This document shows, piece after piece, positions 781 through 62,737 of a stretch of 64,000 bases of DNA. Within the stretch, counting starts at the first letter, position 1, and each line of letters starts with the position of its first letter. Position numbers and translations under genes: made by a program. The notes below the pieces were generated by a model. It saw only the letters and a program-made list of their open reading frames with translations. It ran no database searches and was not told the DNA's origin. This DNA is from Azorinus chamasolen (taxonomy: Eukaryota; Mollusca; Bivalvia; Cardiida; Solecurtidae), in NCBI GenBank assembly GCA_963576725.1, contig OY755241.1:56110484-56174483 (forward strand), read 5' to 3'.

Positions 781-1024
781 CTTTCCCTCATATAAACGTG
801 TTTTCACGCATTTGCAAACAGAGTAGACCCAGATCAGACGGCTCCTATAGGAGCCGTCTGATCAGGGTCTGCTCTGTTTGCTAATATAATTTGATAGATC
901 TGTTTCTATACTTTCTAAAATGATTACAATGTTCCACCTTCCATATTTCATTTTAACTATTTTGTCAATGAATATTCAGTAGGTACTGAAATTTGGAATA
1001 AACATAGAACAGGGACAGAGTTAA
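781..1024. repeat. TTAA-A foldback element
   Basis: Hairpin GCAAACAGAGTAGACC .. GGTCTGCTCTGTTTGC with apex GCTCCTATAGGAGC at 841-854; long arm ends CATAGAACAGGGACAGAG then TTAA. It follows a left-half fragment of FB-C (about 710-777). Confidence 0.85.
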
Positions 1025-5684: not shown

Positions 5685-5800
5685 ATTTAACCCTCTGAAT
5701 GCAGGAAACCAGTTAAATGGCATTTGTAAATCGTGTAGACCCAGATCAGAGGGCTCTTCTAGGAGCCCTCTGATCTGGGTATGCACTGTTTGTAATTAAA
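5685..5800. repeat. TTAA-G-like hairpin fragment
   Basis: Arms GTAGACCCAGATCAGAGGGC and CCCTCTGATCTGGGTATGCA with apex GCTCTTCTAGGAGC (one mismatch from the shared apex). Confidence 0.65.
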
Positions 5801-7038: not shown

Positions 7039-7329
7039 TTAACACATTGTCCCCTAGTGACGCATATTTGCGCCTCTGTAAAATTCACATTGTGAAACCA
7101 TTGTGAAAAATAGAGCATTTGCTCCTATAGGAGCAAATGCTCTATTTATCACTGTGAAACCATTGTGAAAAATAGAGCATTTGCTCCTATAGGAGCAAAT
7201 GCTCTATTTATCACAATGGTTTCAAACTAAAAAATTCTAAAATTTTCCTTTTCTCTGGTTAATGCTCCTTTTCGGTAGATTAATTAAAAAAGGCTGGTTC
7301 TAAAAATAGCCTATGAGAGAATGAGTTAT
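7039..7329. repeat. TTAA-B element with a tandemly duplicated hairpin
   Basis: The complete hairpin AATAGAGCATTTGCTCC .. GGAGCAAATGCTCTATTTATC occurs twice in direct tandem (apexes at 7121-7134 and about 7180). Left TTAA intact, right end GAATGAGTTA mutated. Confidence 0.85.
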
Positions 7330-7519: not shown

Positions 7520-7860
7520 AGACAATAGGTAGAGATGAGCAAAATCAAATATTTAAATTTCGACCAACCACAGGAAACCAATAGGTTACCATAGCAACCA
7601 AAACTTTTGAATAACCTGGTATTAAGTTTGGGTTACCCAAATACCCCTTCATATTAAGCAATATCCAATAATATCTAAATTGCGACCAATCAGACCCCAC
7701 CACTATGTACCATGGCAATAAACTCTTTCGAAACGCCAAAAATGCGTTCTGGGTTCCCAAATACCCCTACATACCAATTCTAGCAAAATTGAACAAATTT
7801 AAATTTCAGTTAACATGGCAACCAAAAGTCTTGGCAAAAAGTTTCCATGTTTAGGCACTA
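7520..7860. repeat. Tandem-like repeat, about 140-bp period
   Basis: Diverged units share AAATTT-CGACCAA.. , GGTTACCATAGCAACC / GTACCATGGCAATAA and GGGTTACCCAAATACCCCT / GGGTTCCCAAATACCCCTAC. Probably the core of a pearl-like element. No gene seen. Confidence 0.45.
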
Positions 7861-7927
7861 TTATAAAATCAAGTCAATAAATATTCCTGAAGTGATATTC
7901 TTGTACAGTTATGGGTTAAATGCTTCT

Positions 7928-8107
7928 CCCAGAGGAGCCGTCTGATCAGGGCCTGCTCTGTTTGCTAACAGAATTTGATAGGTCTGTTTATTTGCTTTCT
8001 AAAATGTCTACAATGTTCCACCTTTCATATTTCTTTATAATTATTTTGTTAATGAATATTCAGTAGGTATTGAAATTTGGAATAAACATAGAACAGGGAA
8101 AGGGTTA
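7928..8107. repeat. TTAA-A right half
   Basis: Only the right hairpin arm (GAGGAGCCGTCTGATCAGGG) and long arm to ATAGAACAGGGAAAGGGTTA remain. A second half fragment follows at 8112-8167. Confidence 0.75.
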
Positions 8108-8213
8108 TAACAAGATGACTCTGTTTGCAAAGGTGCTAAAAGGTGTATTTATCGAGTAAAAGATTAAAACAAGCTAAACCTCTGCAATGCAGATAAAACA
8201 AGCATGTACAAAC

Positions 8214-8312
8214 CTCTATCAATTCAAATGACGTCTCCTTCTCATTAAGCATGGCCATGGCTCGCTTGGTCTGCTCAGAGTAATCGCTGGAAATTATCAT
8301 GTTCAAGTTCTC
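8214..8312 (-). CDS. DHX9: DHX9 coding exon 16 (residues 599-631)
   Basis: 99-nt phase-0 exon, acceptor GTCTTTCAG, donor GTTTGT. Translation ENLNMIISSDYSEQTKRAMA, then MLNEKETSFELIE. Human counterpart: ANCNLICGDEYGPETRLSMS and LNEKETPFELIE. It lies between the acidic insert and RecA2. Confidence 0.94.
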
Positions 8313-8904
8313 CTGAAAGACACAGTCAAAGACATTAAATTTAAAGATTTATTATGCGCATTTTTCGTATTAATCAATCAACATCAGAAGCTGTACACAT
8401 ATACATACAACGAAATTAATGCTTACAACCCATTTTCCGACAGGATATATTTGTTCAGCTAAATATTATTGCTATCCATATACTACTAAATTCTTAAAAA
8501 GGAGCCTCCTTTTTAGAAACGGAGATTTTGTACAGAAATCAGCGGACATCTCCGGCCAAGTTCTGAATAACTCCGATTCTATTTCAGAACAGCCCTTTGA
8601 ATATGAATTAGGTTGTTATCACATGTACAATGACTGACACTGGTTTTTCGCCTACATACATATCGAATGATTATTTCCGGTATGTGAATTTGAATCTTAC
8701 TACAGATTCCGGCCAATGGCAAATGCTGTTCCGTTGGTTTCCGTAGCAATTCATTTTTCTTATTTTTTCGACACAAACCACCATTTACTAACCGTGCTGT
8801 TTAGTGTTAAATAGGTGTTAAGGTACATAGATTCCAATTCTGAAGTCAGTTTGAAACGCAAAATTTGCGGAAATCTGGATCCAAACTGTTTGCAAAGGTA
8901 ACCA
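8313..8904. other. Intron 15 segment with no recognised feature
   Basis: Nothing convincing on either strand. Short open frames of 65-72 codons occur but show no family features. A GGATCCAAACTGTTTGCAAA stretch near 8877 resembles one arm of TTAA-F. Confidence 0.4.
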
Positions 8905-9594: not shown

Positions 9595-9823
9595 TTAACC
9601 CGTTCCCTCATATTGACACTATTTGACGCCTCTGTAAATGTTCACTCCTTGAAACCATTGTGATAAATAGAGCATTTGCTCCATAGGAGCAAATGCTCTA
9701 TTTACCGCAATGGTTTCAAAACTACACACTTCTAAAAGTTTCCTTTTCTCTAGTAAATGTTCCTTTTTGTAGATTTATTCAAAGACGTTGAGTCTAAAAA
9801 TAGCCTATGATGGAATAGGTTAA
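9595..9823. repeat. TTAA-B foldback element
   Basis: TTAACCCGTTCCCTCATATT to TATGATGGAATAGGTTAA, 229 bp. Followed directly by an A-type fragment (9820-9968) sharing the TTAA. Confidence 0.85.
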
Positions 9824-11514: not shown

Positions 11515-11764
11515 TTAACCCTTCTCTTGCTGAATTTTAAAATACATTTCTCCATCTTTACTCATGCCCTGTTGTATAATTAAGTATATCTTCACTGTGT
11601 ACACGTATTTCGCTGTGCAATCACTACTGTGGAATGCACTGGTTGCACAATCAACTTGTAAATAGTGCAGACCCTGATGAGACAGCTCCTGCAGGAGCTG
11701 TCTCATCTGGGTCTTCACTATTTACATGTATGTATATTGACGTGAATAGCAAGCGAAGGGTTAA
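11515..11764. repeat. TTAA-E foldback element, complete
   Basis: TTAACCCTTCTCTTGCTG to AGCAAGCGAAGGGTTAA, 250 bp; arms TAAATAGTGCAGACCCTGAT and its inverse; apex GCTCCTGCAGGAGC at 11685-11698. Confidence 0.9.
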
Positions 11765-11810: not shown

Positions 11811-12065
11811 AACCCTTTCCTTCACATAAACACATTTTCATGCCTTTGAAAACAGAGTAGACCTAGATCAGGGTCCATGCTTATAAAACTTTTAGTTGAG
11901 TCTGAGTTCGTTCTCAAGTTTTTGATTGGTCAAATCTGACCAATCAAAAGCTTGAGAACGAACTCACTCAACTAAAAAGCTTTATAAGCATGGACCCAGG
12001 TGGCTCCTCTAGGACCTACGGTTTAAAAAGGCGTAGAAAGACGTGTATATGGAGTAAATGGTTAA
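11811..12065. repeat. TTAA-A element carrying a nested palindrome
   Basis: CCCTTTCCTTCACATAAACA start, hairpin arm AACAGAGTAGACCTAGATCA split by the palindrome at 11871-11997, then GGTGGCTCCTCTAGG, ending GTAAATGGTTAA. Confidence 0.75.
11871..11997. repeat. 127-bp palindromic element, GGGTCC family
   Basis: GGGTCCATGCTTATAAAAC and its inverse AAGCTTTATAAGCATGGACCC, with inner arms TTTGATTGGTCA / TGACCAATCAAA around AATC. It is inserted inside a TTAA-A hairpin arm. Half copies occur near 29620-29740 and 30145-30195. Confidence 0.8.
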
Positions 12066-12961: not shown

Positions 12962-13210
12962 TTAACCCTTTCCTTCAAAGAAACGTGTTTTCACGCATTT
13001 GCAAACAGAGTAGACCCAGATCAGACGGCTCCTATAGGAGCCGTCTGATCATGGTCAGCTCTGTTTGCTAGTGGAATTTGAAATATCTGTTTCTTTACTT
13101 TCTGAAATGGCTACAATATTCCACCTTCCATATTTCATTATAACAATTCATCCATGAATATTCAACAGGTATTTAAATTTGGAGTAAATATAGAACAAGG
13201 AAAGGGTTAA
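12962..13210. repeat. TTAA-A foldback element, complete
   Basis: TTAACCCTTTCCTTCAAAGA to AACAAGGAAAGGGTTAA, 249 bp; arms TTTGCAAACAGAGTAGACCC / AGCTCTGTTTGC; apex GCTCCTATAGGAGC. Confidence 0.9.
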
Positions 13211-13420: not shown

Positions 13421-13649
13421 TTAACCCTTTCCTCAATAAAAACGCATTTCTACGCCTCTGTAAAAGTCCCTTTATGAAACCATTGTGATAAATAGAGCAT
13501 TTGCTCCTATAAGAGCAAATGCTCTATTTATCACAATGGTTTCAAACTAAAAAATTCTAAAACTTTCCTTTTCTCTAATTAATGCTCCTTTTCGGTAGAT
13601 TTATTCCAAGTGGTTGAATCTAAAAATAGCCTATGAGGGAATGGGTTAA
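13421..13649. repeat. TTAA-B foldback element, complete
   Basis: TTAACCCTTTCCTCAATAAA to TATGAGGGAATGGGTTAA, 229 bp; apex GCTCCTATAAGAGC. Confidence 0.9.
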
Positions 13650-14687: not shown

Positions 14688-14936
14688 TTAACCCTTTACT
14701 CCATAAGTATGCCTTTAAACGCCTTTGCAAACAGGGTAGACCCAGATTAGACGGCTTCTATGGGAGCCGTCTGATCAGGGTCTGTTATGTTTGCTTAAGA
14801 TATAATATAGATATGGGTCTATGGTTTCTGCTGTGGTCAAACCTTCCTGTGTCTGTGTGCAGTTTAACAATTAAACCTCATTAATATTCATGATGTCATT
14901 ATGTTTTACATGAATATTCATGGAGGAAAGGCTTAA
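14688..14936. repeat. TTAA-A foldback element, complete
   Basis: TTAACCCTTTACTCCATAAG to ATGGAGGAAAGGCTTAA, 249 bp. A TA-D remnant (14599-14686) precedes it. Confidence 0.85.
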
Positions 14937-15490: not shown

Positions 15491-15910
15491 CAGGGTTACC
15501 ACAAACCAGAAGAAACAAAATTCCCTGACATTTTCTTCACATAATTTCAAATTTCCTTCACTCTTTACATTGGGACATTTGGTCATATTTTATGTAACAT
15601 ATTTTAGGAAGCTTAACCCTTTCAAACCTGAATTATCATAGTGGAACAGTGGATTTTGCATAACAAACAGTGCAGACCTTGATCACTAGGCTCCTCTAGG
15701 AGCCCCATGATCTGGGTCTACACTGTTTACAAATAACAGTGCATGCATCTGCCAGGTTGAAAGGGTCTAAATTATTTTAATATATGCCCTTGAATCTCAT
15801 TTTTCCAAAATTCCCAGACAATTCCATATATTTTCAAAATTCCCTGACAATTCCCTGACCTTGAACAAATTTCAATTTCCTTGACTTTTCTCCGACGTAT
15901 GGCAACCCTG
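15491..15910. mobile_element. Possible hAT-like element interrupted by a TTAA-G insertion
   Basis: Left end CAGGGTTACCACAAACCAG, right end CCGACGTATGGCAACCCTG; AGAAG on both flanks; TTCCCTGACA motifs inside both ends. The foldback element at 15613-15770 lies within it. Superfamily assignment is tentative. Confidence 0.5.
15613..15770. repeat. TTAA-G foldback element
   Basis: TTAACCCTTTCAAACCTG and CAGGTTGAAAGGGTCTAA; arms AAACAGTGCAGACCTTGATC / GGGTCTACACTGTTT; apex GCTCCTCTAGGAGC at 15690-15703. Confidence 0.8.
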
Positions 15911-25502: not shown

Positions 25503-25729
25503 ATACAGTAAAACCCCTCTAAACCAGAATTCTGGTAGAGAAGAATTTAGAAACTTTTACATAGATGGCTGCAGCACTTAATGCTGGGTGACAGTCATGC
25601 AGAAAGTTCCTAGAGGAGCTTTCTGCATGACTGTCACCCTGCATTAAGCTGCCACCTGTCTCCAAGACATACAGCATTGAAGACATATTTATACTAAATT
25701 TAACGTCCGGTTTACAGGAGTTTTACTGT
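25503..25729. repeat. TA-D3 pogo-like foldback element
   Basis: TA-CAGTAAAACCCCTCTAAACC to GGTTTACAGGAGTTTTACTG; arms TCATGCAGAAAGTTCCTAGA / GGAGCTTTCTGCATGA. Confidence 0.85.
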
Positions 25730-27270: not shown

Positions 27271-27348
27271 TCCATAAACAAACAGCAGACCCAGATCAGA
27301 CAGCTCCTACAGGAGCTGTCTGGTCTGGGTCTGCTGTTTGTTTATGGA
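27271..27348. repeat. Near-perfect 78-bp palindrome with the shared apex
   Basis: TCCATAAACAAACAGCAGAC and GTCTGCTGTTTGTTTATGGA arms around GCTCCTACAGGAGC (27303-27316). Followed by a scrambled FB-C piece to about 27460. No family ends are visible. Confidence 0.8.
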
Positions 27349-28784: not shown

Positions 28785-29242
28785 TTAACCCTTTCCCTGT
28801 TCAATATTCAATCATGTAAGAATTATGACATGAATATCTATTAGCTGAAATTTTTATCCAGTAAAACCTCTCTATAACGGCCACTAAATTACATCAAGTA
28901 TTTTTGTCAAAGGCAGGAGGCTGCTTAAAGCAAGGTCAAAGTAAAACAGAACGCTCCTTTAGGAGCGTTCTGTTTAACTTTCACCTTGCTTTGAGCCGCC
29001 ACCTGCCCTAAATACCAACTAATTAACAGAATTTAGGGGCTGTTATAGAGAGGTTTTACTGTAAAGGCGAAATTGTGTACAACGGATAATTTGCTTCAGG
29101 CAGAAACTGCTGAATCAGATCAATATCAGACTACAGCAAACAGAGCAGACCCTGATCAGACGGCTCCTATAGGAGCAATCTGATCTGCGTCTTCTCTGTT
29201 TGCCCAGACCTGAAAAGACGTTTATATGAAGGAAAGGGTTAA
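28785..29242. repeat. TTAA-A element split by TA-D2
   Basis: TTAACCCTTTCCCTGTTCAA at the left, ATGAAGGAAAGGGTTAA at the right, hairpin near 29165 (GACGGCTCCTATAGGAGCAA). Interrupted at 28859-29063. Confidence 0.8.
28859..29063. repeat. TA-D2 pogo-like foldback element nested in TTAA-A
   Basis: CAGTAAAACCTCTCTATAAC to TTATAGAGAGGTTTTACTG-TA; apex GCTCCTTTAGGAGC at 28953-28966. Confidence 0.88.
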
Positions 29243-30945: not shown

Positions 30946-31154
30946 TACAGTAAAATCCCTCTAATGCGACCACCTAAAAAGAGGTATAATTTTGGGTTGT
31001 AGAGGCAGGTGGTAGCTTAATGAAGGACAAAAGTAATGCAGAAAGCTCCTAGAGGAGCTTTCTGCATTATTTTTGTCCTGTATTAAGCAACCACCAGCTT
31101 ATAAAGTCAGATATGTTTATCATTAAGTGGTCGCATTCGAGGGGTTCTACTGTA
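30946..31154. repeat. TA-D1 pogo-like foldback element, complete
   Basis: TA-CAGTAAAATCCCTCTAATGC to GCATTCGAGGGGTTCTACTG-TA, 209 bp; apex GCTCCTAGAGGAGC at 31045-31058. Confidence 0.92.
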
Positions 31155-37560: not shown

Positions 37561-37762
37561 TTAATGTTTCGTCTGCAACAAAAAGTTATTGTCATCTGCT
37601 TCAATTCTTAAAATAAACTTACTTTCATTTTCTTGCAAAAATATGGTTAAGATGACAAACAGTTTGGATCCTGATGAGACGCCACAGTATGCGGCCTCTC
37701 ATCTGGATCCAAACTGTTTGCATAGGTAATCACAGTTTCACCACTAGCATGCAAAGAGTTAA
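37561..37762. repeat. TTAA-F foldback element
   Basis: Right end CTAGCATGCAAAGAGTTAA; arms GACAAACAGTTTGGATCC and GGATCCAAACTGTTTGC. Related to the complete copy at 61943-62133. Confidence 0.75.
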
Positions 37763-45039: not shown

Positions 45040-46788
45040 GTACTTACTGAATATTCATGGACAAAACAGTTATAACAAGAGTGCCAGTAGACACAATATA
45101 CGCCCGTCGGGGTCTTGTTCAACATAAACTGGGGTTAACGTATTTGCTGAACTCAAATTCTAAGCCCAATTTTGCGACCAAGTTTCAAGGTTGTAAATAG
45201 GCATACTTTAACAAAAAACCTTAACCAAAAATTCTAAATTGAAAAGTGCCATAATTGTGTCTAAATGCTTGACAGAGTTGCATTGTATTTACTCTTGCCT
45301 ACAGATGAAGCTTCTGATGGTGAACAAATGTTTCAAGTTTAAAAGCTTTATCTGAAAGGGTTATGTAAATAAGTGGACTTTAACTAAAACCTTAACCAAA
45401 AATTCCAAGCTAAAAAGCGTCATAATCATGTCAAAATGTTAGACAGAGTTATGTACTCTTGCCTACAGGTGAAGCTTGTGATGGTGAACAAGTGTTCCAA
45501 GTTTAAAAGCTTTATCTCAAAGGGTTATGTAAATAAGTGGACTTTAACCAAAACCTTGACAAAAAATTCTAAGTTAAAAAGGGGCATAATTCGGTCAAAA
45601 TGCTTGACAGAGTTATTTACTCTTGCCTACAGGTGCAAGTTGTGAAGGTAAACAAGTGTTCCAAGTTTAAAGGATTTATTTCAAAGGGTTATGTAAATAA
45701 ATGGACTTTAACAAAGCCTCAACCAAAAATTCTAAGTTAAAAAGGGGCATAATTCGGTCAAAATACTTGACAGAGTTATGTACTCTTGCCTACAGGTAAA
45801 GGTAGTGAGGGTGAACAAGTGTTCCAAGTTTAAAACCTTTATCTCAAAGGGTAATGTAAATAAATGGACTTTATCAAAGCCTTTATCAAAGCCTTAACCA
45901 AAAATTCTAAGTTAAAAAGGGGCATAATTCGGTCAAAATGCTTGACAGAGTTATTTACTCTTGTCTACAGGTGAAGGTTGTGATGGTGAACAAGTGTTCC
46001 AAGTTTAAAAGCTTTATCTCAAAGGGTTATGTAAATAAATGGACTTTAACAAAGCCTTAACCAAAAATTCTAAGTTAAAAAGGAGCATAATTCAGTCAAA
46101 ATGCTTGACAGAGTTATTTACTCTTGCCTACAGGTGAAGGTTGTGACGGTGAACAAGTGTTCCAAGTTTCAAAGCTTTATCTCAAAGTGTTATGTAGATA
46201 AGTGGACTTGTTCCACATAAATTGAGGTTAACATTTTTGCTTAACGCAAATGCTAAACGCAAATTCTAAGTCCAATTAAGTGACCTTGACCTTGGATAAA
46301 CGAGCCGGGACTTGGCAGGCTACTGTAGCATGTCTAGATATACATGATGATTAAATTTGGGAAGGATCCACCAAGCGGAACTTGAGTTAGAGATGTTACA
46401 GACAGACAGACCGGTTAAATTTTTTGACCTTGACCTTGGATAAACAAACCGGGACTTGGCAGGCAACTGTAGAATGTCTAGATAAACATTGTGTTAAAAT
46501 TTGAGAAGGATCCACCAAGCGGAACTTGAGTTAGAGATGTTACAGACGGACAGACGGACAGACACACAGACAGCGCCATTCCATAATACGTCCCGTTTTT
46601 TCAAACGGGCGTATAATAAAAAGTGGAAGGTGGAGCATTGTAGTCATTTTAGAAATAGAAATGGATCTATCAAATTCCATTACCCAAACAGAAGACCCTG
46701 ATCAGACGGCTCATACAGGAGTCATCTGATCTGGGTCTACTCTGTTTGCAAATGCATGAAAGGGCGTTTAAATGAAGGAAAGGGTTAA
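45040..46788. repeat. TTAA-A element split by a long pearl-like insertion
   Basis: Left piece TACTGAATATTCATGGACAA to GTTATAA at about 45073; right piece from 46617 (AAGTGGAAGGTGGAGCATTG) through a hairpin to AAGGAAAGGGTTAA. The pieces join to a normal A arm. Confidence 0.75.
45073..46616. mobile_element. Pearl/Helentron-like element with several core units
   Basis: Starts ACAAGAGTGCCAGTAGACAC and ends GGGCGTATAATA after a CCCGTTTTTTCAAACGGG hairpin. Direct repeats TATAA flank it. The interior is a tandem array of about six or seven units of roughly 165 bp (ACTCTTGCCTACAGGTGAAG .. TCAAAGGGTTATGTAAATAA), then two AGGATCCACCAAGCGGAACT units and ACAGACGGACAGACGG. It has the same ends as the one-unit copy at 84-416. 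Confidence 0.75.
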
Positions 46789-49086: not shown

Positions 49087-49399
49087 TACAGTTGAACTTC
49101 GATATCTCGATCTCGGATAATTCAAACTTCAGGATAACTCGAATAAAAAGTTCAGTCCTTCCAAAACATAATTGCTCTAAAATGTATCGCTACAGATATC
49201 TGGAAACACATGTGACAGCTTAATACAGGTCTAAAGTAATGCTGAAGCTCTTACAGGAGCTTTTAGCATTACTTCAGACCTGTATTAAGCTGTGGCATTG
49301 AGAAATTGTTCAGATTTGAAATCGGATGACTCGAACTTCTGTTATCTCGAACTAATTTGTATGGTCCCTTCAAGTTTGAGTTATCGAAGTTCAACTGTA
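49087..49399. repeat. TA-D4 pogo-like foldback element, 313 bp
   Basis: TA-CAGTTGAACTTCGATATCTC to GAGTTATCGAAGTTCAACTG-TA, inverted ends of about 25 bp; inner arms ACAGCTTAATACAGGT / ACCTGTATTAAGCTGT; centre GCTCTTACAGGAGC. Inserted in a TTAA-A remnant (48979-49085). Confidence 0.88.
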
Positions 49400-50849: not shown

Positions 50850-51075
50850 TACAGTAAAACCCCCGCTAATGCGACCACTTAATAAAGAGCCACTGGCGTC
50901 GTTTAAAGCAGGTGGGTGCTTAATGCAGGACAAAAGTTATGCAGAAAGCTCCTTATGCAGAAAGCTCCTATACGAGCTTTCTGCATAACTTTCGACCTGC
51001 ATTAAGCAACCACTTGTCTCTGCCACCCATAATAATGCCTATTTTTGGTGGTTGCATTAGCGGGGTTTTACTGTA
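50850..51075. repeat. TA-D1 pogo-like foldback element
   Basis: TA-CAGTAAAACCCCCGCTAATG to CATTAGCGGGGTTTTACTG-TA; TTATGCAGAAAGCTCC duplicated at the left of the apex. Confidence 0.9.
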
Positions 51076-53789: not shown

Positions 53790-54035
53790 TTTACCTCATA
53801 GATATGCCATTGACACCTTTGCAAATAGAGGAGAGCATGATCACAGTTCCCGTAGAAACCATCTGATCAGGATCTGCCTTGTTTATTTGAAAAAATAAAT
53901 CTGATTCTACAACTTCTGCCATCATCCATGTCTAATAATTTTGGTGGTCTTCATAACTCTCTATGAAAATTCAATATAAATAATGTTCATGATAACAATG
54001 CTTTTCACGTGCATATTCGACAAGTAAAGGATTAA
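53790..54035. repeat. TTAA-A element, first of a chain of three
   Basis: GTTAGCCTTTTACCTCATAG to GACAAGTAAAGGATTAA; hairpin degraded. Confidence 0.75.
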
Positions 54036-54260
54036 CCCATTCCCTGATATTGACGACTTTTGACGACTCTGTAAAAGTCACTTTGTGAAAACATTGTGAT
54101 AAATAGAGCATTTGCTCCTATAGGAGCAAATGCTCTATTTATCACAATGGTTTCAAACAACAAAATTCTAAAATGTTCCTTTTCACTAGTTAATGCTCCT
54201 TTTCGGTAGATTTATTCAAAGAGGTTGTATCTAAAAATAGCCTATGAGGGAATGGGTTAA
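54032..54260. repeat. TTAA-B element, second of a chain of three
   Basis: TTAACCCATTCCCTGATATT to TATGAGGGAATGGGTTAA, 229 bp, sharing a TTAA with both neighbours. Confidence 0.9.
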
Positions 54261-54682: not shown

Positions 54683-55964
54683 ATTATAACTAGAGGTTTT
54701 TGTCAAAAAAACGGATGTCTCCCCTCTAATAAAAACAATATGTAAAGGGAAATCACTAAAAATGTTATGGTCTTGACGAATGATACTTCCCCTCATTATG
54801 CGTTTTCCACACTACATTTTTCAAGAAGAAAATGATAACAGCTAATAACTCCAAAAATACTGATACCAGATTTATGGCCCTTGTGCATGACACTTACTTT
54901 CATCATGCTCTTTCCAAAAATAAAATGTCATTCCAATAGCATCAGTCAATAGGAGTTATTGATCGGCCAAAAAATGTAACAAAGGGCAATAACTCCAAAA
55001 GTATTGAAGCCAGAATTATGGCCCTTGTTCATGACACTTTCTCTCATCATGCTCTTTCCATATATGAAGTTTCAATACGATGGCAAGAGCCATGTAGGAG
55101 TTATCGTCCGGACAAGAAAGAATTAAACAAATGTACAAGGGGCAATAACTCTAAATTTATTGAAGCTGGAGTTAAGGATCTTATGCATGACACTTTCTCT
55201 CGTTATGATCTTTCCATATATGAAGTTTCAATCCAATGGCATCAGGCATATTGAAGTTATTGTCCGGACAAAAAATTATAATATTTTTTACAAAGGGCAA
55301 TAACTCCAATATTAGTGAAGCCAGAGTTATGGACCTTATGCATGACACTTCCTCTCATTATGCTCTTTCCATATATGAAGTTTAAATCCAATGGCATCAG
55401 GCATGTAGGAGTTATCGTCCGGACAAAAAAGTGTGATTTTTTTTTACAAAGGGCAATAACTCCAATATTAGTGAAGCCAGAGTTATGGACCTTGTGCATG
55501 ACACTTCCTCTCATTATGCTCTTTCCATATATGAAGTTTCAATCAACTGGCATCAGGCATATTGAAGTTATCGTCCGGACAAAAAGTGTGACAGACAGAC
55601 GGACAGACGGACGTACTAACAAATGGGTAGTTGTGTGACTTTTTCCTTTGATCTTTTCTTGTGTGACTAGTCCCACAAGAAAAACTATTTTTGGCTCTAA
55701 CTTTGGAAAAGAATGATCTGGAAGCTAACCCTAACCCTAACCCTATGTCCCACAACTGGCCAGGTTAATGTCACAAGAAATGGCCAGGTTAATGTCACAA
55801 GAGATGGCCAGGTTAATGATTTTACTTGTGGGACTAGTTAGAAAAAGTCACACAACTACCCTTTGGTGAGTGCGGACAGACAGACAGACGGACAGACGGA
55901 CAGACAGACAACTCTCACGAAAACAATATGTCTCCCCCATATAAATATGGGGGGAGACATAATT
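54683..55964. mobile_element. Pearl/Helentron-like element with tandem core
   Basis: Flanked by ATAATTA on both sides. Core units of about 130-160 bp (AAAGGGCAATAACTCCAA .. AGTTATGG.CCTT .. GAAGTTTCAAT .. AGTTATCGTCCGGACAAA), at least five copies, then ACAGACGGACAGACGGAC and the 3' hairpin GTCTCCCCCATA / TATGGGGGGAGAC. It carries a further insertion at 55625-55861. Confidence 0.8.
55625..55861. mobile_element. Inverted-repeat element containing telomere-like repeats
   Basis: GGGTAGTTGTGTGACTTTTT and its exact inverse at 55842-55861 bound the element; GACTAGTCCCACAAG / CTTGTGGGACTAGT is an inner pair. It contains TAACCCTAACCCTAACCCT (55726-55744) and three ATGGCCAGGTTAATG units. It sits inside the pearl-like element's microsatellite (GACGGACG on the left, GACAGACAGACGG on the right). 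Confidence 0.7.
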
Positions 55965-58151: not shown

Positions 58152-58465
58152 TCCTTTACCTGATGAATATTCATGCAAGAATTAACCCATTCCCTCCTAC
58201 CGACGCCTTTTTACGCCTCTGTAAAACTAAAAGAGGCTGGGCCTAAAAATAGTCTAGGAGGGAATGGGTTAATGACATCATAATCATCATATTGATTAGA
58301 TGAATTTTTATTACGTCAAAATGAACACAGGATTTTTGGTAATGGCAGAAACAGGACAATTTGTCCCATTATAAAACAGAGCAGACACTGATCAGATGGC
58401 TCCTGTATGAACTGTCTGATCTTGGTCTACTCTTTGCAAGACATCTGTACCAGGTGAAGGGTTAA
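58152..58465. repeat. TTAA-A element, host of a TTAA-B insertion
   Basis: CCTTTACCTGATGAATATTC .. GCAAGAA, insertion, TGACATCATAATCATC .. hairpin GATGGCTCCTGTATGAACTG .. GGTGAAGGGTTAA. Confidence 0.8.
58182..58272. repeat. TTAA-B minimal derivative, 91 bp, nested
   Basis: TTAACCCATTCCCTCCTACC to TAGGAGGGAATGGGTTAA with the hairpin deleted. Both flanks belong to one TTAA-A arm (GCAAGAA and TGACATC), so the TTAA duplication is directly visible. Confidence 0.9.
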
Positions 58466-62544: not shown

Positions 62545-62737
62545 CAGAGCTCCAGATAAGATGCGTAAATTAAATGATTTTCAGGAGTAACTTCTTTATT
62601 TCTCCACCAAACCCAATATTGTGACCACTCTTTAGAATCGTCTCTTCGAGACGATTCTAAAGAGTGGTCACAGTATAGGGTTTGGTGGAGAAATAACGAT
62701 TTTAGGATTTGAGTACGCACCATTATCTGTAGCTCTG
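62545..62737. repeat. FB-C foldback element, complete, with a direct repeat
   Basis: CAGAGCTCCAGATAAGATGC to CATTATCTGTAGCTCTG, 193 bp; TGAACT occurs immediately on both sides (62539-62544 and 62738-62743). Hairpin CTCTTTAGAATCGTCTCTTC and inverse. Confidence 0.9.

Follow-up and report, generated by a model that had tools for sequence, protein, structure and literature searches.

GCTCCTNNAGGAGC, a palindrome tip shared by TTAA- and TA-flanked miniature transposons of Azorinus chamasolen, is a candidate docking site for a protein dimer

In the genome of the bivalve Azorinus chamasolen, the 14-letter palindrome GCTCCTNNAGGAGC (6-bp half tips and two central bases) forms the centre of longer palindromes that fall into three differing sets and lie in two kinds of miniature transposons (MITEs): piggyBac-type elements flanked by TTAA and pogo-like elements flanked by TA. 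We propose that GCTCCTNNAGGAGC is a shared and exchangeable tip that may act as a docking site for a putative protein dimer, and that this docking would aid the multiplication of both kinds of MITE. We give this reading a probability of about 0.4. The two-fold symmetric tip would be read by a dimeric protein, and selection would act on copies that are still transposing, so the tip would be kept and inserted copies would decay evenly. Since this tip is found with element ends of two types, its reader would probably be a host factor or a cross-acting factor.

We examined the tip in a stretch of 64,000 nucleotides (the window) and in the genome that contains it (1,723,440,353 bases in 137 contigs; the window is in contig 7). 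The window has 33 exact GCTCCTNNAGGAGC sites, versus 0.00075 expected from its base composition, and the genome has 389,419, versus 58 for the same pattern reversed, which served as a control. These counts already refute chance or an assembly artefact as the source of the tip. A previous sequence-only reading of the window listed seven exact sites and, in TA-D4, one with a single mismatch. All of them are present and each is at the dyad of a palindrome, so those sites are real; the list was incomplete, given the 33 exact sites and the 82 that are found once decayed copies are counted (up to 2 mismatches, or 3 if the flanks are palindromic). The window contains 75 strong dyads, and three base shuffles of it contain none. 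The tip, with at most 4 mismatches, is in 51 of these dyads and is absent from 24, several of which are class B palindromes whose centre is 13 nt long or class A palindromes with central deletions (these classes are described below). Rfam gave no matches. Exact-pattern scans did not find the tip in viral contigs (viral_contigs), and scans of genome_contigs gave no matches in one case and a single match, in a bacterial contig, in the other, which we took to be chance. In the open-licence PMC literature, we found neither GCTCCTATAGGAGC and six arm sequences nor any description of palindromic piggyBac MITEs of bivalves; words that begin with "palindrom" are absent from the main text of a bivalve transposable element survey (PMC10294476).

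Table 1. Features of the window, and loci of the transposase-bearing elements. TTAA-A to TTAA-G, orphan and FB-C are names from the sequence-only reading; percentages are matches between copies.
Feature	Position or loci	Strand	Remarks
Tip T1 (GCTCCTATAGGAGC), class A palindrome (TTAA-A)	841..854		arms about 816-879
Tip T1, one mismatch, element H	5753..5766		palindrome 41 bp from TTAA of H
Tip T1, class B (TTAA-B)	7121..7134		tandem second copy 7183-7196
Class B palindrome, 13-nt centre GCTCCATAGGAGC	9653..9715
E element (TTAA-E)	11515..11764	-	tip 11685-11698; palindrome 41 bp from right-hand TTAA
Complete A1 element TTAA...TTAA, 249 bp	12962..13210	+	tip 13028-13041; palindrome begins 41 bp from left end
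B2 element, class B palindrome	13421..13649	+	tip 13503-13516, one mismatch
A2 element	14688..14936	+	end and right interior differ from A1; consensus palindrome and distance equal; here the tip differs by 2 mismatches
Tip T1, class A variant (TTAA-G)	15690..15703
Tip T1, one mismatch, in D3 element	25606..25619		TACAGTAAAACCCCTCTAAACC end
Tip T1 of orphan	27303..27316		class A arms; 2-bp deletion common to both sides
Tip T1 in D2 element	28953..28966		CAGTAAAACCTCTCTATAAC-type ends
Tip T1 in D1 element	31045..31058		TACAGTAAAATCCCTCTAATGCGACC end
Class A (F type) arms (TTAA-F)	37662..37714		tip degenerate, different
Tip with one mismatch, D4	49247..49260
B1 element	54032..54260	+	tip 54114-54127
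FB-C palindrome	62588..62704		other arms and tip; family without T1
Transposase, 529-aa type	L032/L034/L035		94-99% over most of length
Transposase, 511-aa type	L033, L036+L038, L037+L039		about 99% (98.7-99.6%)
Transposase, intron-bearing type	L030/L040		99%
Transposase, 621-aa type	L041/L042		99%

Three classes of arms account for all of the exact sites, both in the window (33/33; A 20, B 10, D 3) and in a genome sample of twenty 10-kb stretches at round coordinates on thirteen contigs (57/57; A 31, B 11, D 15; 200,000 bases including 4,104 N). Class A is TTAA-flanked and piggyBac-type, class B is TTAA-flanked, and class D is TA-flanked with pogo-like ends. Class A takes in TTAA-A, TTAA-E, TTAA-G and the orphan, which had been described as unrelated families, and class D takes in TA-D1 to TA-D4. 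The arms of A, E, and G agree at 21-23 of 25 positions and have left/right asymmetries in common, so these are not unrelated families, and the orphan scores as class A by its arms. Similarly, TA-D1 to D4 are a single arm class rather than separate families, with D4 in a shifted register. Judged by their arms, the palindromes within class A (A, E, G, and the orphan) share descent, as do those within class D. FB-C does lack the tip, as had been noted, and has other arms and another tip. TTAA-F also lacks it, yet its arms are class A, and intact relatives in the sample have a different symmetric tip. Besides the palindrome in Table 1, FB-C has eight further dyads in the window, with their own arms and tip, and a rarer palindrome class, also with its own arms and tip, occurs at position 11934 of the window, at L015:4042, and at L016:4989.

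Between classes, arms match at 5-12 of 25 positions, and the lowest p among 19 such comparisons is 0.0445. The arms of A and B match at 5/25, which is the chance level, right next to an identical 6-bp half tip. A and D arms show a weak likeness (12/25, p about 0.06), and both consensus arms have CAGA two bases outside the tip. As far as these alignments go, the tip is the sole clear match between arm classes. The weak A-D likeness may reflect partial common descent of the two palindromes. A whole palindrome that was the ancestor of all classes was dropped as a candidate, given the cross-class matches of 5-12/25, and so was the origin of class D by nested TTAA insertion, since no empty site was seen among the loci searched. 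The sequence-only reading had noted that its proposal would fail if the families descended from one palindromic ancestor. This is the case for several families, which are one palindrome by descent, but across classes the tip alone is clearly shared. Its broader statements, that a common tip lies under different ends and target sites (TTAA and TA) and that this points to a common function or origin, are supported.

Class A and B elements run from TTAA to TTAA over about 220-250 bp, and their ends are CCCTTTCC, CCCTTTAC, or CCCATTCC. Using a scan that itself required TTAA-like starts (with one mismatch allowed), we found TTAA at both ends in 50 convergent pairs of TTAACCC-like ends, 49 of which fall in two similarity clusters. 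The terminal inverted repeats (TIRs) begin with CC[C/T]T in A (CCCTTTCC / CCCTTTAC) and in B (CCCTTTCC or CCCATTCC), except that the B1 TIR begins with CCCA, which deviates at the fourth base. Ends and palindromes appear in different combinations. Beyond TTAACCC, the ends of A1 and A2 match at 24/34 positions and their consensus palindromes at 64/64; the consensus ends of A2 and B2 match at 31/34 and their palindromes at 26/64; and for A1 and E, the values are 17/34 and 53/64. Going by these comparisons, ends and palindromes have been shuffled among A and B elements.

Such shuffling suggests another explanation, which we consider rather unlikely as a whole but serious: one palindromic core was passed among co-mobilised MITE families by recombination, and the tip is a remnant without function. 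The A1/A2 and A2/B2 combinations fit this explanation, as do the single lineage formed by A, E, and G (by their arms and shared asymmetries), the CAGA and the 12/25 match that link A to D, and the similar decay of tip and arms within A and B that is described below. But the A-B arms are at chance while the 6-bp half tip is identical, which excludes uniform divergence. Furthermore, the core would have to pass from elements of one target type (TTAA or TA) to the other, and in class D, the symmetric changes hit the arms and spare the tip.

The spacing between palindrome and end is mostly fixed. (Class A spacing, symmetric changes in arm and tip cells, polarity, and tip types were counted in the window and in loci L010-L029.) In class A elements with T1, the arm begins 41 bp from the TTAA in 51/86 copies with an end found, and in class D, the tip begins 96-99 bp from the end in 26/33 ends found. 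Spacing is looser in class B, where the distance from TTAA to dyad ranges from about 75 to 94 bp, with several copies at 89 bp. Class D has a TA target and CAGT-type TIRs, and there are several kinds of TA-CAGTA ends. By exact motif, 10/52 D palindromes have both ends, and the remainder have one or none; 11/52 are units of tandem arrays. Satellite-like arrays of D-type palindromes with the tip are at L025:4740-5108 (8 units, mostly 52 bp apart) and at L016:4074-4158 (3 units, 42 bp apart).

We then compared the tip with the arms. Among window copies, conservation of the tip does not exceed that of the arms in A (34 copies, p = 0.56) or B (13 copies, p = 0.29); in E, it is slightly less conserved (4 copies, p = 0.97); and for seven pooled D copies, p = 0.03. 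So the sequence-only reading's own test, that the tip should be more conserved than the arms, finds no difference within A and B. Equal conservation inside families is expected for neutral decay of inserted copies.

Changes that affect both halves of the palindrome give a different picture. Between subfamily consensuses, symmetric and one-sided changes number 4:1 for A-E, 2:0 for A-G, 4:1 for E-G, 6:0 for D2-D3, 8:0 for D2-D1, and 4:0 for D3-D1. The six comparisons, which are not independent of each other, sum to 28 symmetric and 2 one-sided changes, and the sets used for subfamily consensuses and arm asymmetry include overlapping or repeated loci (L002-L009; L030/L040). In class D copies, which were picked by their arms alone, one-sided changes are alike in the arms (150/1000 cells) and the tip (33/240 cells), whereas symmetric changes are in 106/1000 arm cells versus 1/240 tip cells. 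In class A, symmetric changes are in 143/3650 arm cells and 15/876 tip cells, and there is a minor symmetric tip variant (6/146). A position-level permutation gives p = 0.017 for the tip's deficit of symmetric changes in D and p = 0.23 in A. For A and D together, symmetric variants at about 5% of copies or more are found at 18/50 arm positions versus 0/12 tip positions (Fisher p = 0.0098), where the threshold of about 5% was our choice and the arm positions include position 24 of class A, at which the arms already differ. The lists of arm pairs contain some chance pairs, and they required at least 15/25 arm matches, which works against finding symmetric changes in the arms. These patterns suggest, moderately in D and weakly in A, that the tip is constrained in the copies that found new subfamilies.

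The arms of class A have a polarity. At position 17 from the dyad, the end-proximal arm has A and the distal arm has T in 63/70 oriented T1 copies, as well as in 4/4 copies with tip T2 and 2/2 with tip T3 (all counted in copies with an end 36-46 bp away). The A, E, and G consensuses have this asymmetry in common, which suggests that the three are of common descent. Copying of one arm onto the other would erase the polarity, so it is unlikely that new class A palindromes or tips arise in this way. A preferred template-switch point, which had been suggested as the origin of the palindromes, is therefore disfavoured for class A; it may hold for B and D, where the two arms of the consensus are symmetric. 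A possible exception is the palindrome at 27303, where both arms have the same 2-bp deletion and which is possibly a single case of fold-back copying. We also considered ongoing arm-to-arm correction in inserted copies and dropped it: class A copies in the window have 10 symmetric changes versus 8.1 expected. In a larger, partly overlapping set, symmetric changes exceed expectation (A 21 versus 8.3, E 4 versus 0.6, D3 9 versus 2.2, D1 15 versus 4.6), which we tentatively read as subfamilies that were not separated.

The tip varies as a unit. Among 217 class A arm pairs, 131 have T1, 17 have T2 (CCGAGTNACTCGG), and 4 have T3 (CCGCCTTTTCAAGGCGG), each with at most 4 mismatches, and the others have other or damaged centres. 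T1 is found on A, B, and D arms, and T2 is also found inside a transposase-bearing element. Since A-class arms also bear two other tips, and since ends and palindromes are shuffled, the tip behaves as a separable module in these alignments. The numerous A-class elements with other tips or damaged centres imply that T1 is not indispensable.

The exchange of whole tips could also be explained by structure: the palindromes may form hairpins or cruciforms that exchange or rebuild their tips as caps, in which case it is a structure, rather than a protein site, that spreads. We consider this improbable, more so than descent without function, although it too remains a serious contender. It would account for T1, T2, and T3 differing as whole symmetric units on similar class A arms, and for the central two bases being more variable than the arms in the window (0.221 versus 0.100 in A, 0.077 versus 0.032 in B, 0.357 versus 0.163 in D). 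It is also consistent with the varying centre length in class B, the slippage-like duplications that touch the tip (50970 and 13940), and the shortened centres, which are common. On the other hand, a structural cap has no need for one specific 12-bp sequence, the central bases of E are invariant (4 copies in the window), and the class A arms remain mismatched at positions 17 and 24, although hairpin repair should remove such differences. The first of these is a tandem duplication of 16 bp in a D1 copy (50912-50970); its end is in the tip, and it resembles slippage at the dyad.

The central two bases also bear on the proposal that the tip is a symmetric site of the recombinase type, whose central overlap would be 2 bp. 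The dyad symmetry and the variable central dinucleotide are what such a site would have. However, the centre is not always two bases: in 20/59 class B arm pairs, the centre is 13 nt, and 12 of these 20 are GCTCCATAGGAGC or its complement. In its arm context (TTTGCTCCATAGGAGCAAA), the 13-nt form has 23,824 exact copies across the genome. Because 14-nt and 13-nt centres are both abundant in class B, a recombinase with a fixed overlap fits poorly, and we consider it very improbable.

If the tip is a protein site, transposase-bearing relatives of the MITEs are of interest. The genome has at least 110 matches to PF13843, a piggyBac-type transposase domain. We took flanking DNA for five transposase groups, of which four had near-identical copies for comparing ends (Table 1) and one (L031) was represented by a single copy. 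Proteins of the 529-aa and 511-aa types match DDE_Tnp_1_7 in Pfam, and the 511-aa type also has sequence matches to two solved chains, 9c0f (piggyBat) and 6x67. The 511-aa-type element has the ends TTAACCCTTTCCCTG.../...ACAGGGAAAGGGTTAA, its terminal 20 bp are identical to the right end of A1, and it holds A1-like internal pieces. Its near-identical copies, along with an open 509-aa frame in L033, suggest that it was recently active. The end of the 529-aa-type element matches A1 at 23/34 positions beyond TTAACCC, and its target site is TGAA or GTAA (two copies seen). By their ends, then, the TTAA MITEs appear to have a transposase-bearing partner in the same genome.

The 529-aa-type elements also carry many copies of TAGACCCAGATCAGA, the core of the class A arm. 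There are 15 matches in the 4.0-kb L032 (versus 0.94 in shuffles) and 19 in the 5.4-kb L034 element, of which two overlap others. Some of these copies are arranged as inverted pairs that flank other centres. In the intron-bearing type, the TAGACCCAGATCAGA motif is found within tandem repeats, and the 621-aa-type element has no such motif between its ends. Class A arms thus resemble an inverted pair of a repeat motif that transposase-bearing piggyBac-type elements carry multiply, and because of this resemblance, the arms and the tip of class A may be one composite site. Among the elements whose ends were read, we did not find T1 as a native part. Both copies of L030/L040 have a one-mismatch tip in what appears to be a decayed, nested A2 MITE, and the other tips near transposase-bearing elements fall outside the element ends. 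Beside the transposon in L036+L038 (C7), at about 7794-8722 of the joined stretch, class B-like palindromes alternate with A1-like ends.

Of the three suggestions in the sequence-only reading (a protein site, a template-switch point, or a recombinase site), a protein site seems to fit best. A symmetric sequence with a variable centre, in several arm contexts, with mostly fixed spacing, even decay, and few symmetric changes, is what we would expect of a cis site for a symmetric protein. Counting against a docking site are the numerous A elements with other tips or damaged centres, the 13-nt centre of class B, and the looser spacing in B. The same holds for the failure to find T1 as a native part of the transposase-bearing elements whose ends were read, for the slightly lower conservation of the tip in E, for the minor symmetric tip variant of class A, and for the weak A-D arm likeness. 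A stronger form of the docking-site proposal is that a single dimeric protein, either a host factor or a cross-acting one, recognises the tip in MITEs of two transposase superfamilies and decides which MITEs amplify, which would have led to about 390,000 copies with intact tips. We think that this form is unlikely, somewhat more so than descent without function. If it were true, both kinds of MITE would rely for their amplification not only on their own transposase but also on a shared factor.

The nearest precedent that we found, by analogy, is the coral CMITEs, which also have a conserved core under different ends. The CMITEs of Acropora are described as piggyBac/TTAA MITEs whose families have different TIRs (CCCTTTCCC..., CCCTTTAAG...) and have in common an internal region whose conservation exceeds that of the ends; the paper terms its origin a mystery, suspects a role in transposition, and estimates about 1,600 copies for A. 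millepora (PMC2872659). In A. chamasolen, too, the core is more conserved than the ends, as in the A1-E and A1-A2 comparisons. In contrast, the published 60-bp CMITE core lacks GCTCC and GGAGC (the two words that we checked), and words that begin with "palindrom" are absent from the main text of that paper (PMC2872659). Also unlike the CMITEs, the core described here is palindromic and modular, has alternative tips and TA-flanked carriers, and has a different copy number.

PiggyBat and piggyBac are TTAA elements. Their transposases are reported to bind palindromes in their ends, unrelated in sequence, via paired C-terminal Cys-rich domains; these symmetric sites are near the element end, as here, and are 12-19 bp (PMC11707139), versus a palindrome of at least 64 bp with a separable tip, which also occurs in TA elements. 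Since the palindromes of these two systems are unrelated to each other, tips could likewise differ with their reader.

With its TA target and CAGTAAAACC-type ends, class D resembles pogo/Tigger-like MITEs, which is the family that we take it to belong to; it differs in having several end types on one palindromic core with T1. Internal sequence of Stowaway MITEs reportedly enhances their transposition. The predicted role of the tip would be analogous, as a cis enhancer inside a MITE, except that the core here is symmetric and modular. A study of MITE internal sequence that enhances transposition is mentioned in the coral CMITE paper (PMC2872659), and a mosquito element paper reports subterminal palindromes in some ATons (PMC3422177).

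It has long been asked why a few MITE families reach explosive copy numbers, and the work on coral CMITEs did not explain what role a conserved core plays. In A. chamasolen, the ends, arms, and tip are combined in several ways (A2/B2, A1/A2, T1/T2/T3), which provide natural contrasts for transposition or binding assays.

The window has other repeats as well. At 7091-7235, a whole class B palindrome is duplicated head-to-tail with a 62-bp unit (100% match). A 91-bp TTAA mini-element with B-like ends and without a palindrome is at 58182-58272. Long tandem repeats with 163- and 156-bp units are at 45205-46209 and 54979-55585, respectively.
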